From: Formosa algae
GTDB lineage: Bacteria; Bacteroidota; Bacteroidia; Flavobacteriales; Flavobacteriaceae
NCBI RefSeq assembly: GCF_001439665.1
Contig: NZ_LMAK01000073.1
Coordinates: forward strand, 1 to 64,000
DNA length: 64,000 nt
Direction of reading: 5' to 3'
Below the pieces are notes generated by a model. The model had not been told where the DNA came from. It was given only the letters and a program-made list of their open reading frames with translations, and did not search any database. The translations under genes and the position numbers were made by a program. Positions within the stretch are counted from its first letter, which is position 1, and each line of letters starts with the position of its first letter. Shown in pieces: positions 34,809 through 43,537 of this stretch.

Positions 34809-36116
34809 TTATTTTGTTCCGTTTAAAAACTTAGGTTTCATAACTAACATAGCCCATGCCCAATTTTGAGCATCTGCTGCATCTGCTTTTGTTACACCTT
34901 TTAACTCATACATCCCGTCTGATGCAAACATTTGAGAATACCCTAATACCAAACTAAAGCCGTCAAACTTCTTAGCATAGACTAAATCTAGTTCTGTACC
35001 TAAAGCTTTGTCTCCGCTAGCTAATTCTTGTTCGCCACTAAAGTTTAACACTTTAACTAACAAACTAGATGTCTCATTTAAAGTGAAATTAGCACTTACA
35101 TGTACATCAACTAAACCAATTGAGTTTGCATGATTTCCAACATAGAAATAATCCATAAATCCGTTAAATTTATGATTTGTACCATATAAAGGAAAGAACG
35201 CACCAGTTTCCCCAGCATCTGCATCATTCCCACTAATAACCTCTACTCCCGCTCCAAGACCTATACCACTAGATATTTTATACGTAGCTTCTAAACCTAA
35301 AAGATAAGCCCCTTTAACAGACAAATCGTTTACACGTTCTCCTGTTTGTAAATACGCGTTTCCGTCTAATCCAAACGCACCAGATTTATATTTTAAATGT
35401 GTACCAATAGTTTGTAAACTACTCACGCCATACCCATCGTAAGTACGTGAACCATCTACCAATTCAAAATTTTGAAACGTATTATTTAAAAGCAATAGAC
35501 TTGCAGAAAACGCACTCCAGTCTTTCTTTAAATATCCATATTGCATAGCTTTATACGTAAAGAAGTTTGGATCTTCAGTATATTCATTTCCTGTAGACAC
35601 ATAACCGCTAATATTACTTGTATAGTCGTCAAAATCTTGATTAAAGGCTAAACCAACATCAAACATAAAACCTTCTTTTTTGTACTGAATTAAAGCAGCA
35701 TCGTGATTACGTCCCATTTGAGCCCAATCTAAACCACCCATAATACGCTGATCGTCGTAAGACAATACTTGGCGACCAATTTTAGTTGAAAATCCTGAAC
35801 CCAGTTTTATATCTGCCCAAGCTTGAAAAATAGCGAACGAATTATTGGTATCTACAGTATTAATCTGTCTGTTTTCACCCCAGGTTAAAACATCTTGCAT
35901 ACTTAAATAAAAGGTATAAGCTTCGGTTTTGTAATTGGCGTTTAAGCGCGCACGCGTACTAATTGAAAATGCAGGTTCTGCACTTTCTGAAATAATACTT
36001 CCAAAACCATGACGATATTCTGCACGCGGTCTAAATTCTCCATCCAACGTAAATTGTGCCTGCATGGCTTGAAAACTCCCTAACAAAAGGACTAATACTA
36101 TTAATTGCTTTTTCAT
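34809..36116 (-). CDS. Alginate-export-family outer-membrane porin
   Basis: A 435-residue beta-barrel protein with a signal peptide (about 1-20, ending MQAQ). It begins FTLDGEFRPRAEYRHGFG, typical of the alginate-export (AlgE-like) barrel family. Alternating beta-strand segments (ISTRARLNANYKTEAYTFYLSMQDV) and RQVLSYDDQRIMG fit too. It is last in the operon with the nitrate-type ABC importer (46-base gap), so I infer that it passes nitrate, nitrite or a related small anion across the outer membrane. The family name reflects fold, not alginate use. Confidence 0.8.
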   Translation of the reverse strand: MKKQLIVLVLLLGSFQAMQAQFTLDGEFRPRAEYRHGFGSIISESAEPAFSISTRARLNANYKTEAYTFYLSMQDVLTWGENRQINTVDTNNSFAIFQAWADIKLGSGFSTKIGRQVLSYDDQRIMGGLDWAQMGRNHDAALIQYKKEGFMFDVGLAFNQDFDDYTSNISGYVSTGNEYTEDPNFFTYKAMQYGYLKKDWSAFSASLLLLNNTFQNFELVDGSRTYDGYGVSSLQTIGTHLKYKSGAFGLDGNAYLQTGERVNDLSVKGAYLLGLEATYKISSGIGLGAGVEVISGNDADAGETGAFFPLYGTNHKFNGFMDYFYVGNHANSIGLVDVHVSANFTLNETSSLLVKVLNFSGEQELASGDKALGTELDLVYAKKFDGFSLVLGYSQMFASDGMYELKGVTKADAADAQNWAWAMLVMKPKFLNGTK

Positions 36117-36162: not shown

Positions 36163-36999
36163 TTAATGCTCTAAAAAGTCGATTAAATGTTTACGATACT
36201 TATAATAGTCATCATGTTCTAAAACAGATTTTCGAGTACGAGGACGTTCAAATTCTATATTTAAAACATCCCCTATTTTTGCTTTTGGTCCACTTGTCAT
36301 CATCACTACACGATCTGCTAAAAAGATAGCTTCATCCACATCATGTGTAATCATAACTGCAGTAATTTTTTCCTTATTCCAAATTTCTATAAGTATATCT
36401 TGTAATTCTCCTCGTGTTAAAGAATCTAGCATCCCAAAAGGTTCGTCTAACAATAACACTTTTGGTTTAATAGCAAAAGCTCTTGCAATACCAACGCGTT
36501 GCTGCATTCCTTGCGATAAATCTGCCGCTTTTTTATGAAACGCATCTTCTAAGCCAACTTTCTGTAAATAATATTTAGCAATATCGTTACGCTGTGCTTT
36601 TGTTGCATCCGGAAAGACTTGATTAACACCTAACAATACATTTTGAAGAGCCGTCATCCAAGGCATTAAACTTGGCGATTGAAAAATAACACCACGATCT
36701 GGTCCTGGGCCTTTTATACGGTTACCTAAAACAGAAATACTGCCTCCAGAAATTTCATTTAAACCTGCAATCATAGACAACATTGTGGTTTTACCACAAC
36801 CAGAATGCCCTATTATAGTTACAAATTCTTCTTTCATGATTTTAAGATTTAAATCCTCCAGCACCACATAATCTCCTTTAGGCGTTGGATATACTTTTTT
36901 AAGCTGATTTAAATCTAACATGACATTAGCCGAAGGATAAATGATACCATTTTCACCAGGTACAGTAGGCTGTTTTATTATAGTTGATTTTAAATTCAT
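36163..36999 (-). CDS. Nitrate/nitrite-type ABC transporter ATPase (NrtD-like)
   Basis: A 278-residue ATPase of the NrtD/SsuB/TauB family. Walker A is GHSGCGKTT, the Q-loop lies near IFQSPSLMPWMTALQNV, the signature is LSQGMQQRVGIARA, and Walker B is VLLLDEPFGMLD. The H-loop follows in ITHDVDEAIFLADRVVMM. An N-terminal extension of about 30 residues precedes the cassette. Second ATPase of a heterodimeric pair with the 37010 gene (10-base gap). The substrate assignment rests on the binding protein. Confidence 0.88.
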   Translation of the reverse strand: MNLKSTIIKQPTVPGENGIIYPSANVMLDLNQLKKVYPTPKGDYVVLEDLNLKIMKEEFVTIIGHSGCGKTTMLSMIAGLNEISGGSISVLGNRIKGPGPDRGVIFQSPSLMPWMTALQNVLLGVNQVFPDATKAQRNDIAKYYLQKVGLEDAFHKKAADLSQGMQQRVGIARAFAIKPKVLLLDEPFGMLDSLTRGELQDILIEIWNKEKITAVMITHDVDEAIFLADRVVMMTSGPKAKIGDVLNIEFERPRTRKSVLEHDDYYKYRKHLIDFLEH

Positions 37000-37009
37000 A
37001 AATTAAATT

Positions 37010-37855
37010 TTAAAAATGTCCGACAAAACTTTTAGGTTGTAAATCTGGTAACACATACTCTTTTTGAACATCAGATTTTCTTTGATTCCCTATATCCATA
37101 AGGTATTCGATAATTGCATTACGTGTAGATTTAAAATTAGGATCATCATTCAACGCCGTTTTATCTCTCGGACGATCTATATTAATTTTAAACTCTGGTC
37201 CTAAGGTTGCATTAGGCCCTGGACGTAACGGAATAATACGGTCTGCCATATAAATGCCTTCATCTACATCATTAGTAATTAATAAGGCCGTACGTTTTTC
37301 TTTTCCCCAAATATTTAATATTTCATCTTGAAGATTTCCGCGAGTCAATGCATCTAAAGCGCCTAAAGGCTCGTCCATAATAATCATTTCAGGTTTCATT
37401 GCTAAAGCTCTAGCAACAGCGACACGTTGGCGCATTCCTCCAGACAATTCATTTGGGCGCTTATTCATAGCAGGTGTTAAGTTTACCATCTCTATATAAT
37501 CTGCAACTAATGCATGCAATTCGGATTTACTTTTCTTAGGAAACACTACTTTTACCGCCATATAAATATTCTGAGCTACCGTTAACCAAGGCAACAACGA
37601 ATAATTCTGAAAAATCACGCCTCGCTCATGGCTGGTACCAGAAACTTGTTGTCCTTTAAACAACACCTCACCACTTGTAGCAGTAATAAGTCCATTTATT
37701 AAATTGACTAATGTTGTTTTTCCGCTACCTGTAAATCCTACAATAGCAACAAATTCGCCTTCTTCTATAGATAAATTAATGTTGGAAAGTACTTCGGGAG
37801 CATCGTCTGCATGTCCGTACGTTTTACATATATTATTTAATTCTAAATACGCCAT
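37010..37855 (-). CDS. Nitrate/nitrite-type ABC transporter ATPase (NrtC-like)
   Basis: A 281-residue ATPase. Walker A is GFTGSGKTT, the signature is LSGGMRQRVAVARA, Walker B is MIIMDEPLGALD, and the switch region reads LITNDVDEGIYMADR. Asn takes the place of the usual His in the H-loop (ITNDVDE), so this site may be weak or inactive in hydrolysis. Unlike cyanobacterial NrtC it lacks a fused binding-protein domain. It lies 18 bases after the permease gene. Confidence 0.87.
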   Translation of the reverse strand: MAYLELNNICKTYGHADDAPEVLSNINLSIEEGEFVAIVGFTGSGKTTLVNLINGLITATSGEVLFKGQQVSGTSHERGVIFQNYSLLPWLTVAQNIYMAVKVVFPKKSKSELHALVADYIEMVNLTPAMNKRPNELSGGMRQRVAVARALAMKPEMIIMDEPLGALDALTRGNLQDEILNIWGKEKRTALLITNDVDEGIYMADRIIPLRPGPNATLGPEFKINIDRPRDKTALNDDPNFKSTRNAIIEYLMDIGNQRKSDVQKEYVLPDLQPKSFVGHF

Positions 37856-37873: not shown

Positions 37874-38980
37874 TTAAATACCTTCGTTTTTATTAAAAGA
37901 CACTGCATTTTGAATGGTTAACATGATTCTATCTAATAAGAATCCGATAATACCAATGACAAACATGGCTACAATAATTTTTGAATTTGAATCGTTCGCA
38001 CCATTCTGAAACTCTTCCCAAACAAACAATCCTAAACCTGGACTTTGCGCCAATAATTCAATTGCAATTAACACCATCCATGCTACGGATAACGTAATTT
38101 TTAATCCTGTAAAAATTAATGGTAAAGACGATGGTAAAATAACTTTAAACACTTTTTGTATAGGGCCTAATTTTAAAACCTTTGCAACGTTTATATAATC
38201 TTTATCTACTGAAGACACCCCCATAGCTGTATTTACTAAAGTGGCCCACATAGAACATAACCCTACACTTATAAAAGAGATAATAAAAGAACTATCGTCT
38301 GTAGAATCTATTAAAATGGTTTTCACAATCATGAATACTAATAAGTACCAAACTACTGGAGATACAGGTTTAAAAATTTGAATAAACCAATTAAACGCAC
38401 TTCGCAATGTTGGACTTAAACCAATAAGTATTCCTAACGGTACAGCAATAATTAAGGCCAATAAAAAGCCTGCAAACACTGTTTTTAAACTCATTATTAT
38501 CTGATCGATAAACGATGGTCTCCCTGTATAGGTTATCGGATCTAAACCAGAAGCAATACGTTCTGTGTTTAACACTTCTGTTTTTTCTTTAAACGCTGCT
38601 TTATCTGCACTAATCGCATTATGATCTTTTAATAACGACTTATAAGAATCCCAAACCTGACTTGGCGCAGGCAAGGTGTTAGGCTGACAGCTTACATCTC
38701 CAGAAGCAATACATGCTTTCATCTCATCGGCAGCAGCTGGACCTTGGTCGGTTAGTGCTTTTTCTACTTTAAAATTAGCTTCTCTTTGATAAAGTGCTTT
38801 TGCGCCTAAATGCCACATTCCGATAAATAATAGAATAGACGCCAGGGGCACAATCACTTTTCTTAAAAAGCTTATAAAATCTTCTCTTTCTAAATTTCCT
38901 GTGAATAGGTCTTTTAAAGTACTTAAAAATCCTAATCCCATAAATTTGCTAACGCGTCCTAAGGTTATGCTCTGCTTCAT
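37874..38980 (-). CDS. Nitrate/nitrite-type ABC transporter permease (NrtB-like)
   Basis: A 368-residue inner-membrane permease of the NrtB/SsuC/TauC type. A first helix is near residues 43-60 and a periplasmic stretch of about 100 residues follows (with Cys pair CIASGDVSC and LPAPSQVWDSYKSLL). The remaining helices contain the EAA-like cytoplasmic loop, VAKVLKLGPIQKVFKVILPSS. The long first periplasmic loop makes it larger than the usual roughly 270-residue members. It lies 25 bases after the binding protein gene. Operon with both ATPases. Confidence 0.88.
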   Translation of the reverse strand: MKQSITLGRVSKFMGLGFLSTLKDLFTGNLEREDFISFLRKVIVPLASILLFIGMWHLGAKALYQREANFKVEKALTDQGPAAADEMKACIASGDVSCQPNTLPAPSQVWDSYKSLLKDHNAISADKAAFKEKTEVLNTERIASGLDPITYTGRPSFIDQIIMSLKTVFAGFLLALIIAVPLGILIGLSPTLRSAFNWFIQIFKPVSPVVWYLLVFMIVKTILIDSTDDSSFIISFISVGLCSMWATLVNTAMGVSSVDKDYINVAKVLKLGPIQKVFKVILPSSLPLIFTGLKITLSVAWMVLIAIELLAQSPGLGLFVWEEFQNGANDSNSKIIVAMFVIGIIGFLLDRIMLTIQNAVSFNKNEGI

Positions 38981-39005: not shown

Positions 39006-40400
39006 TTATTGTATTGGTTGATCTTTATTACCTATAGAAAAACTATTTATATACTCAATAGGTTTTTTTGCATCGAAAACAGTACCGTCTATAAAATCTG
39101 TAGTAGCTGGCTTATAACCGTCTGTTGCTGGAATATCTTCTGCAGGAATCTGTCCTTCTTCAACTAAAAGTGTTGCCGCTTTTTTCCAAATATCTGGTCT
39201 GTAAATATCTTTTATTGTTTCTCCATACCAATCTGCCGACTTAGCTTCATGAATTTGTCCCCAACGACGCATCTGTGTTAAGAACCAAACACCATCTGAA
39301 TAGAACGGATATGTCGCATTGTATTTGTAAAACACATTAAAGTCTGGCATATCACGTTTATCGCCTTTTTCAAATTCAAATGTTCCCGTCATAGAGTTAG
39401 CAATAACCGCTTCGTCTGCTCCAACATATTGAGACATCGATAAAATTTTCACAGCTTCAGCTCTGTTAGACGGTTCGTCTAACCATTTTCCTGCTCTAAT
39501 TAATGCTTTAGTCACTGCAATGGCTGTATTAGGATTATCTTCCACAAACTTTTTAGTCATTACAAAAACCTTCTCTGGATTATTCTTCCAAATATCATAG
39601 TTTGTCACTACCGGCACTCCAATACCTTTAAATACAGCTTGCTGATTCCAAGGCTCTCCCACACAATATCCATAAATTGTTCCTGCTTCTAAAGTCGCTG
39701 GCATTTGTGGCGGAGGTGTAACAGACAATAACACTTCTGCATCTATTTGTCCCTGAACATTTTCTTCTGTATACATTCCTGGGTGAATTCCTGCTGCCGC
39801 TAACCAATATCTGATTTCATAATTATGTGTAGATACCGGAAACACCATTCCCATTTTAAATGGTTTTCCAGAATTTCTGTATTCTTGAATTACTGGTTTT
39901 AAAGCTTCTGCTTTTATAGGGTGAACTGGTTTTCCTTCAGAATCTTTTGGTACATTAGGTTTCATTTTAGACCAAACATCGTTAGATACTGTAATTCCGT
40001 TTCCGTTTAAATCCATTGAAAAAGGAGTCACTAATTCTGCTTGTCTTCCAAAACCAGCACCAGCAGCAATTGGTTGCCCTGCTAACATATGAGAACCATC
40101 TAATTGACCATCAATAACACGGTCTAAAACATTTTTCCAATTAGATTGTGCTTCTACAGAAACATACAATCCTTCATCTTCAAAAAATCCTTTTTCTTTT
40201 GCAATAGCTAAAGGCGCCATATCTGTTAACTTTATAAAACCAAAAGTTAATTGAGGCTTTTCAATGTTTAATGTTTTCGTTTTAGATGTGCTTTCAACAA
40301 CGTGTTCTGCAACTGCTTTTTCTTTTTCTTTACCACCGCAAGACCCTAGCATGATCGCCAAAGGCACAATAAGTATTGATTTTTTAATTAGTGCTTTCAT
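39006..40400 (-). CDS. NrtA/CmpA-family substrate-binding lipoprotein
   Basis: A 464-residue lipoprotein (lipobox MLGSC, Cys21) anchored in the inner membrane facing the periplasm. NrtA/CmpA landmarks are visible: [46 protein letters not shown]-type segment, [12 protein letters not shown] and MRRWGQI. These bind nitrate/nitrite in NrtA and bicarbonate in CmpA; telling them apart needs the pocket residues, so nitrate/nitrite is inferred from family and the FNR-like neighbour. First gene of the five-gene operon to 34809. Its promoter region contains the dyad at 40421-40436. Confidence 0.86.
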
Positions 40401-40420: not shown

Positions 40421-40436
40421 TAAGTATTAATACTTA
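40421..40436. promoter_or_regulatory. Perfect 16-base dyad, candidate FNR-like operator
   Basis: TAAGTATTAATACTTA is its own reverse complement and is followed by GTTT. Half-sites TAAGTA / TACTTA are spaced by 4 bases, the spacing of CRP/FNR-family sites. It sits just downstream of the -7 element, over the expected transcription start. Confidence 0.6.
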
Positions 40437-40444
40437 GTTTTAAA

Positions 40445-40473
40445 CAAATATATAAGTAGTATTGAATATACAA
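40445..40473 (-). promoter_or_regulatory. Promoter of the nitrate-type transporter operon
   Basis: Minus strand TTG (40471-40473), 18 bases, TATATTTG (40445-40452). The predicted start of transcription, about 40440, lies next to or in the dyad. Confidence 0.75.
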
Positions 40474-40722
40474 GATGATTTACACCATAAACCAAACGCT
40501 TTTTACACCATATAAAAACCTGACAAAACACATGTTTTAAGTTTATACAATTGAAATACAGTGTTTTAAACATGAAAATCAAATAAATAAAAATTGGAAA
40601 AATATAGATATTACTACGTAAAAAAACTTCTAAAATTAGAACTACGTAGAAAATTTGACTTTTTAATAAAAAAAAGAAATGCTGAAGAGGTTATATAAAA
40701 ATGAGAGAAGGATAAAATGAAA

Positions 40723-41472
40723 TTAACTATCCAGAAAGAAATTATGAGCACTAATCTCATTTTTCAGACCGTCGATATCATAAATACCAATTTTTTTACC
40801 ACTGGCAATGATGAGTTTTTCCTTTTTTAAAGCTGAAAAAATTCTAATAATTTGCTCATCGGAAGTTCCTGTATAATCTGCGTATTCTTTACGACTTAGC
40901 GGAAGGTTTAGAAATCCGTTAGTAGACCCGAATTTTCTATTAATATAAAGTAACATGTCCGCCACACGTTCTCGAACAGTCATTTGAGATAAAGACTTTA
41001 CTTTGGCTTCACTCCTATTTAGCTCGTTAGCGTAAAACAGCATCATATCATAAGAAAAACGTGGATTTTCATACAAAACCTCCTGTAACATTTGCTTAGA
41101 GAAACAACATAAAACGGTATGTTCTAAAGCAATTGCACCAATAGAATAACTATCAGCCGTACCAAAACCACGATGCCCTATAATTTCACCATCATTAGCG
41201 AAACGTACAATATGTTCTTTACCATTTATGCCCGTTCTAAACACTTTTACTTTACCCGATTTTACAAAATACAAGCCATTTACGGGAGCACCTTCAATAA
41301 TAAACTGCTGCCCTTTTTTAATTTGCAGTGTACTTTTATGGTTTACAAATTTAGATTCGGAAAGAGTCTGGTAATTTCGCTTTATTAAACAAGAAGAGTT
41401 CATACAGGCTCCGCAGGACACACTAGAAGGTGTCAGTTTTTGAAAGGATCGCTGTGAACTATTTAAAGGCAT
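40723..41472 (-). CDS. Crp/Fnr-family regulator with FNR-like cysteines
   Basis: A 249-residue regulator, the length of E. coli FNR. N-terminal cysteines C20-x2-C23-x4-C28 and a cysteine pair C122-C123 match the arrangement of the four [4Fe-4S] ligands of FNR (C20, C23, C29, C122). The spacing of the third differs by one. A cyclic-nucleotide-binding-like beta-roll (about 48-130) is followed by the dimer helix. The helix-turn-helix is near 192-220 with recognition segment SDEQIIRIFSAL, where E206 and R210 match the DNA-contacting Glu and Arg of FNR. It is likely an oxygen, NO or redox sensor; it could also be a cluster-free regulator. Located upstream of, and oriented with, the nitrate-type operon. 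Confidence 0.85.
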   Translation of the reverse strand: MPLNSSQRSFQKLTPSSVSCGACMNSSCLIKRNYQTLSESKFVNHKSTLQIKKGQQFIIEGAPVNGLYFVKSGKVKVFRTGINGKEHIVRFANDGEIIGHRGFGTADSYSIGAIALEHTVLCCFSKQMLQEVLYENPRFSYDMMLFYANELNRSEAKVKSLSQMTVRERVADMLLYINRKFGSTNGFLNLPLSRKEYADYTGTSDEQIIRIFSALKKEKLIIASGKKIGIYDIDGLKNEISAHNFFLDS

Positions 41473-41475
41473 AAA

Positions 41476-41512
41476 ATTAAGTACTTAATACAATATTAAG
41501 TAATAATACTTA
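41476..41512. promoter_or_regulatory. Candidate operators upstream of the FNR-like gene
   Basis: TAAGTA-ATAA-TACTTA (41497-41512, followed by GTTT as at the transporter operon) and a separate perfect palindrome ATTAAGTACTTAAT (41476-41489). TAATATTG (41491-41498, minus) is a near-consensus -7 element between or under them. The layout suggests negative autoregulation. Confidence 0.55.
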
Positions 41513-43402: not shown

Positions 43403-43504
43403 AAAAAAAGGCAAGCTACCTACATCACACCGCTACGACCATTTACCTTTGCTGCGTTCCCGCCCTGGAGGATTCAACAGGAGCTGGTTGTGTAGGACTT
43501 GCCG
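43403..43504 (-). ncRNA. ffs: Signal recognition particle RNA, small bacterial type
   Basis: Minus-strand RNA of about 95-100 nt that binds Ffh and targets nascent membrane proteins. The ends pair (GGCAAGUCCUACAC with GUGUGAUGUAGGUAGCUUGCC). The conserved apical part reads CCAGGGCGGGAACGCAGC AAAGG, with the GGGAAC tetraloop region and the asymmetric-loop sequence expected of SRP domain IV. It ends in a T-run (43403-43409). The promoter is at 43508-43537 with the start a few bases before the RNA. Confidence 0.93.
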
Positions 43505-43507
43505 GTG

Positions 43508-43537
43508 CAAATATACATTCTTTTTATTTTTACACAA
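43508..43537 (-). promoter_or_regulatory. Promoter of SRP RNA
   Basis: Minus strand TTG (43535-43537), 19 bases, TATATTTG (43508-43515), with the RNA 5' end about 4 bases downstream. Confidence 0.85.

Follow-up and report, generated by a model that had tools for sequence, protein, structure and literature searches.

A conserved inverted repeat of nitrate genes in Flavobacteriaceae and its probable recognition by a NarL-type response regulator

The window analyzed here is a 64,000-nucleotide stretch of Formosa algae DNA (contig NZ_LMAK01000073.1), in which the gene of an FNR-like regulator (REG) is followed by an nrtABCD-like transporter cluster and a porin gene (Table 1). One dyad, TAAGTATTAATACTTA, lies before nrtA and a second, TAAGTAATAATACTTA, before the REG gene. 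The initial annotation had noted matching dyads before the binding-protein gene and the regulator gene, and both were confirmed at their positions, with 4-base spacers and with GTTT next on the plus strand. They are the only exact matches to TAMGTA-N4-TACKTA in the window, where 0.07 would be expected, and none of 100 shuffles reached two. When two mismatches were allowed, the 14 matches in the window represented no excess over the 10.75 expected, and one-mismatch counts in the whole genome did not exceed those of the controls. The loss of the excess at two mismatches places the signal in the exact matches. Because relaxed matching was at background level, dyad counts were restricted to exact or refined matches.

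Table 1. Genes and promoter elements at the regulator-nrtABCD locus of the F. algae window
Feature	Position in window	Strand	Details
Outer-membrane porin-like protein (Alginate_exp family)	34809..36116	minus	last gene of cluster; adjoins nrtD in relatives too
nrtD-like ABC ATPase	36163..36999	minus	TIGR01184, above cut-off
nrtC-like ABC ATPase	37010..37855	minus	TIGR01184, just below cut-off
nrtB-like ABC permease	37874..38980	minus	TIGR01183, E 8e-42, below its cut-off
nrtA-like lipoprotein, anion-binding protein	39006..40400	minus	PF13379, E 9e-98
Dyad before nrtA, TAAGTATTAATACTTA	40421..40436	minus	exact match; just downstream of predicted start site
-7 box of nrtA promoter, TATATTTG	40445..40452	minus	TAnnTTTG invariant in 77 aligned nrtA promoters
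Second palindrome, TATGGTGTAAATCATC	40474-40489	minus	of the YATG-N8-CATR type; predicted centre at -41.5 relative to nrtA; candidate site for REG
FNR-like regulator gene (REG), 249 aa	40723..41472	minus	Cys20, Cys23, Cys28, Cys122; recognition helix GTSDEQIIR
Probable -7 box of REG gene, TAATATTG	41491..41498	minus	consensus TAnnTTTG, one mismatch; overlaps dyad
Dyad before REG gene, TAAGTATTATTACTTA	41497..41512	minus	exact match; shares its final TA with the -7 box
Small SRP RNA gene	43405-43511	minus	Rfam RF04183, 105.7 bits

The whole genome (4.29 Mb) contains five exact copies of TAAGTA-N4-TACTTA, two of which are the dyads of the window. Two more lie on contig 78 (C78:62728 and C78:68994, the narK and nirB sites); the first precedes the gene of a NarK-type nitrate transporter by 33 bp, and the second precedes nirB by 36 bp (dyad start to ATG side, L046). 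Both belong to a single cluster, which comprises nirB and nirD, the genes of a DUF4202 protein, a histidine kinase and a NarL-type response regulator, then narK and a nitrate reductase-like gene; in the kinase, PilJ and HisKA_3 domains were recognized along with a weak match to PAS. The fifth copy, between rplL and rpoB (L001), was set aside, as it resembles a terminator stem and is probably one. A generalized dyad, TACGTAAAAATACTTA, was also seen about 60 bp before a gene named moeA-like from its sequence (L301:1501-1516, equivalent to G000:C78:49208-49223), and the moeA-like gene of genome G170 (L163:8823) is likewise preceded by dyads, so the regulon may contain molybdenum cofactor synthesis. 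In three genomes (G372, G028 and G010), TACGTA-N4-TACKTA occurs in many copies, often with the same spacer and with 43 forward matches in G372 alone; these resemble interspersed repeats and seem unconnected with the regulon.

To follow the dyad across the family, REG orthologues were gathered from 80 named genomes plus several others, and 88 Flavobacteriaceae loci with REG were examined. The check proposed in the initial annotation, a search upstream of orthologous regulators and nrt operons in relatives, found the dyad present. The exact dyad preceded nrtA in 55 of 77 REG-bearing cases, while 59 permuted palindromes averaged 0.02. With the refined motif, sites were found in these REG-bearing loci before nrtA (77/82), the globin operon (35/39), nirB (13/14), narK (17/21) and nasC (13/27), and before REG genes with their own promoter (63/66). 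The motif was absent before all 24 REG genes carried in an operon behind narK or a sulfite/nitrite reductase-like gene, and the 88 loci contained none before nrtB, nrtC, nrtD, nirD, the kinase gene, napA, napH or nrfA. Such restriction to unit starts, with no copy before internal genes, is the signature of a regulon, and the dyad marks a nitrate regulon family-wide. TACGTA boxes, considered as sites of a second regulator, were rejected as such; in Maribacter/Cellulophaga-type loci the half-site takes this alternative form. One operon under the same dyad (L051:9028-12624) encodes a single-domain globin, a Tll0287-like lipoprotein, a membrane protein, a flavohaemoprotein-like reductase and a multihaem cytochrome, and may be a unit for NO handling or electron transfer. 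Two genomes (G007 and G049; L053 and L054) carry two REG copies each, adjoining nitrate genes.

The initial annotation had called the regulator FNR-like, and the protein bears this out. REG contains the sensor and helix-turn-helix domains of the Crp/Fnr family (PF00027 and PF13545), and its AlphaFold2 model (mean pLDDT, 84) is similar to PG0396 (2gau) and to the A. fischeri holo-FNR, the latter with a TM score of 0.83 by target length. As in FNR, three N-terminal cysteines and a central one are conserved; among 87 REG sequences, C20, C23 and C28 are invariant and C122 is at least 90% conserved. The noted E206 and R210 are present in the recognition helix and align to what we take to be contact residues E209 and R213 of FNR, and the dyads do carry G at the FNR-box distance from the centre (±5). 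Unlike FNR, REG has a Cx2Cx4C spacing, one residue off the Cx2Cx5C of FNR, and scores 78.1 bits against the curated Fnr model, far below its cut-off of 228; it also lacks an FNR box, and the dyads are not its likely site. Fe-S sensing by REG is plausible.

That REG binds both dyads through a new half-site, AAGTA, and so controls anion uptake and its own gene was the explanation first offered for this locus. REG sits between the two dyads, one of them precedes its own gene, and E206/R210 together with G at ±5 suit the geometry of FNR. A survey of 397 family genomes (66 with REG and 331 others) also gave means of 3.64 exact dyads per genome with REG versus 0.50 in the others, and three or more exact dyads in 44/66 versus 14/331. 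However, several genomes without REG hold four or five dyads. REG absence was judged with a profile HMM built from 87 orthologues. No orthologue was found in 27 REG-lacking genomes, which gave either nothing or a distant paralogue at E values of 1e-38 to 1e-49, whereas true orthologues scored 1e-129 or better in the same search. Nitrate loci were read in 20 of these 27 genomes, plus one further stretch of genome G204, and 59 of the 63 generalized dyads lay at most 260 bp upstream of nirB, narK, nasC, nrtA, the porin gene or the response regulator gene. A genome of the same genus (G005, L248) has kept exact dyads before nirB and narK without REG, and a locus from outside the order (L302) contains the kinase, the response regulator and dyads but no REG. 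The site is therefore not confined to REG-bearing genomes, as an FNR-type box of this regulator would be. Since the same promoters retain dyads where REG is missing, another protein must read them there, and the correlation between REG and dyads is accounted for by the fact that REG always co-occurs with the kinase. The shared site and the single regulon of the initial annotation stand, but its claim that REG is the reader is not supported, and binding of both dyads by REG is improbable.

A better candidate is the response regulator encoded beside the kinase. Its closest PDB protein is NarL (E 1e-35), and its receiver Asp54 is conserved. The kinase was found in 92 of the 397 genomes, comprising all 66 with REG and 26 without, and NirB in 93, with the two coinciding in 92 of 93. 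A nitrate-sensor-like (PilJ) histidine kinase and a NarL-type response regulator were encoded in the nirBD cluster of all 20 REG-lacking loci with dyads. The refined site, TAMGTAT-NN-ATACKTA, is a 16-bp inverted repeat of two 7-bp halves around a 2-bp spacer; at the outer spacer positions, T..A is by far the most frequent combination, with 178 sites against 41 for the next. This is the 7-2-7 layout of NarL operators such as TACCCCTAAAGGGGTA (PMC4549865). A nitrate-sensor pair of kinase and response regulator, narHK/narRR, and its gene order have been described for Bacteroidetes (PMC8199190). The pair found here matches it, and the kinase is alike in its PilJ-type sensor, PAS-like region, lack of a detected HAMP domain and location with nitrate genes; the sections of that paper drawn on here deal with kinases and gene order and name neither a DNA site nor a regulon in this branch.

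The half-site also varies with the recognition helix of the response regulator. Counts of the T and G forms were 107 T to 29 G for AEV helices, 16 T to 68 G for VET and 15 T to 31 G for IET. One group of genera combines the half-site TACTTA with an AEV helix, and the Maribacter/Cellulophaga-type group combines TACGTA with VET or IET. The REG helix, GTTEEQVIR, is found in both half-site groups, and such constancy where the half-site changes argues further against REG as the reader. This covariation is suggestive and points to the response regulator, although it reflects few clade-level changes and is not independent proof. Against the response regulator, genome G204 has a class-2 kinase yet some TACTTA sites, and the recognition-helix residues of NarL are not conserved. 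The NarL heptamer of Escherichia coli has the consensus TACYYMT, from which the flavobacterial heptamer departs, as TACGTAT fits it at 6 of 7 positions and TAAGTAT at 5 of 7. In general, the system resembles E. coli NarX/NarL in its NarL-like response regulator, PilJ-type sensor kinase and 16-bp heptamer repeat with a 2-bp spacer, and differs from it in the heptamer (TAMGTAT), in the helix residues, in a regulon that takes in the assimilatory nirB, nasC and nrt genes and in having its sites over the core promoters of almost all units. We consider it likely that the dyads are operators of this response regulator, as part of a joint explanation of the nitrate regulon that includes the switch, its targets and REG as a class II activator.

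The position of the dyads relative to the core promoter bears on the sign of control. The flavobacterial -7 box, TAnnTTTG, occupies -12 to -5 (PMC9723704). Dyad and box overlap at the REG, narK, nirB and nasC promoters, where the final TA of the dyad is also that of the box and the dyad has its centre at about -18.5. At the nrtA and globin promoters of REG-bearing genomes, the box lies 15 to 17 bp before the start of the dyad, which then spans about +4 to +20. To our knowledge, neither is an activator position of NarL, and both are off the positions from which Crp/Fnr proteins activate. These positions, and the fact that NarL-P represses frdA through a 7-2-7 site close to the start site (PMC4549865), favour repression or gating. 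Judged from position alone, the response regulator is most likely a repressor or gate of the core promoter, and it is counter-intuitive for a NarL-type protein to repress nitrate genes.

A second palindrome, YATG-N8-CATR, does occupy a Crp/Fnr activator position. With at most one mismatch, it was found in 62 of 82 nrtA promoters of REG-bearing genomes, where 17.2 would be expected, and in 53 of 55 matches it ended exactly 21 bp before the -7 box. With the -7 box at -12 to -5, this inverted repeat is centred at -41.5 and has G at ±5, the geometry of a class II site. Correctly placed copies at the 21-bp spacing numbered 53 among REG-bearing promoters versus 0 of 5 nrtA promoters from REG-lacking genomes, the latter a small sample. 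In the globin promoter, this place is taken by CTG-N8-CAT. For these reasons of geometry and distribution, YATG-N8-CATR is a better candidate for REG than the dyads are. A related box, YATGAY-N4-RTCATR, was observed 21 bp before TAnnTTTG at many promoters genome-wide in G000, G005, G148, G170, G288 and others, including genomes without REG, and probably serves a ubiquitous Crp/Fnr paralogue of flavobacteria as its class II site. With that caution, the chance that REG reads the nrtA box is about even. A box in the promoter of the porin gene, TATGAG-N4-GTCATA, was not counted as a candidate, since it is like this general Crp/Fnr box, which REG-lacking genomes have as well. A search of the REG promoters for a REG-specific palindrome gave nothing clear. 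Other elements seen upstream of nrtA were a terminator-like CCTG-N8-CAGG and, shortly before the -41.5 box, a conserved block, tAAAAAGAGGTTT, at about -64 to -53; this block was seen in both nrtA and globin promoters (e.g., L048 and L055).

Both proteins might share the dyad, with the response regulator at all sites and REG competing or co-binding at nrtA and globin, where the dyad lies at the start site. In favour of this, the start-site arrangement at nrtA in REG-bearing genomes is absent from five REG-lacking ones, but the globin operon of the REG-lacking genome G204 has the same arrangement and the -41.5 box is a simpler site for REG; we regard such sharing as unlikely, much as we do binding by REG alone. 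Still less likely is a third DNA-binding protein that always accompanies the nirBD cluster and reads the dyad. Kinase and NirB co-occur in nearly every genome that has either, so that presence and absence cannot separate the response regulator from a third factor, but in REG-lacking loci no DNA-binding protein other than the response regulator was a regular member of the cluster, and the helix of the response regulator covaries with the motif. Chance palindromes or mere core-promoter sequence, as might be suspected in an AT-rich genome with two-mismatch matches at chance level, are refuted by the excess of exact matches in the window and by near-universal conservation at unit starts, and their probability is negligible.

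The evidence gathered here is comparative throughout and consists of conserved sites, their positions, and which genomes have or lack the proteins. With the response regulator as the preferred reader, the parts can be assembled as follows. The PilJ-domain kinase and NarL-type response regulator (narHK/narRR of Bacteroidetes), encoded in the nirBD operon, would act on TAMGTAT-NN-ATACKTA, presumably with nitrate as the signal. They would govern one nitrate regulon made up of the nrt transporter, narK, nirBD, nasC, the globin operon in some species, moeA and REG. From about -18.5 or from about +4 to +20, the response regulator would gate or repress the core promoter, and the REG gene itself would be a target of the switch. 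REG, in turn, would probably bind YATG-N8-CATR at -41.5 and switch on nrtA and the globin operon as a class II activator. The full two-part code, in which a diverged NarL-type gate on the dyads is combined with a regulon-encoded FNR-like and possibly Fe-S protein at -41.5, joining nitrate with an oxygen or NO signal, is proposed tentatively, at slightly less than an even chance.

In the open-access literature searched, we found no published account of the DNA sites that control flavobacterial nitrate genes. Here, the obvious neighbouring regulator is probably not the reader of the conserved site, a point of importance when regulons are predicted automatically. The Flavobacteriaceae are abundant marine and soil bacteria, and for their nitrate genes there is now an operator, a target list and a likely regulator pair, all directly testable.
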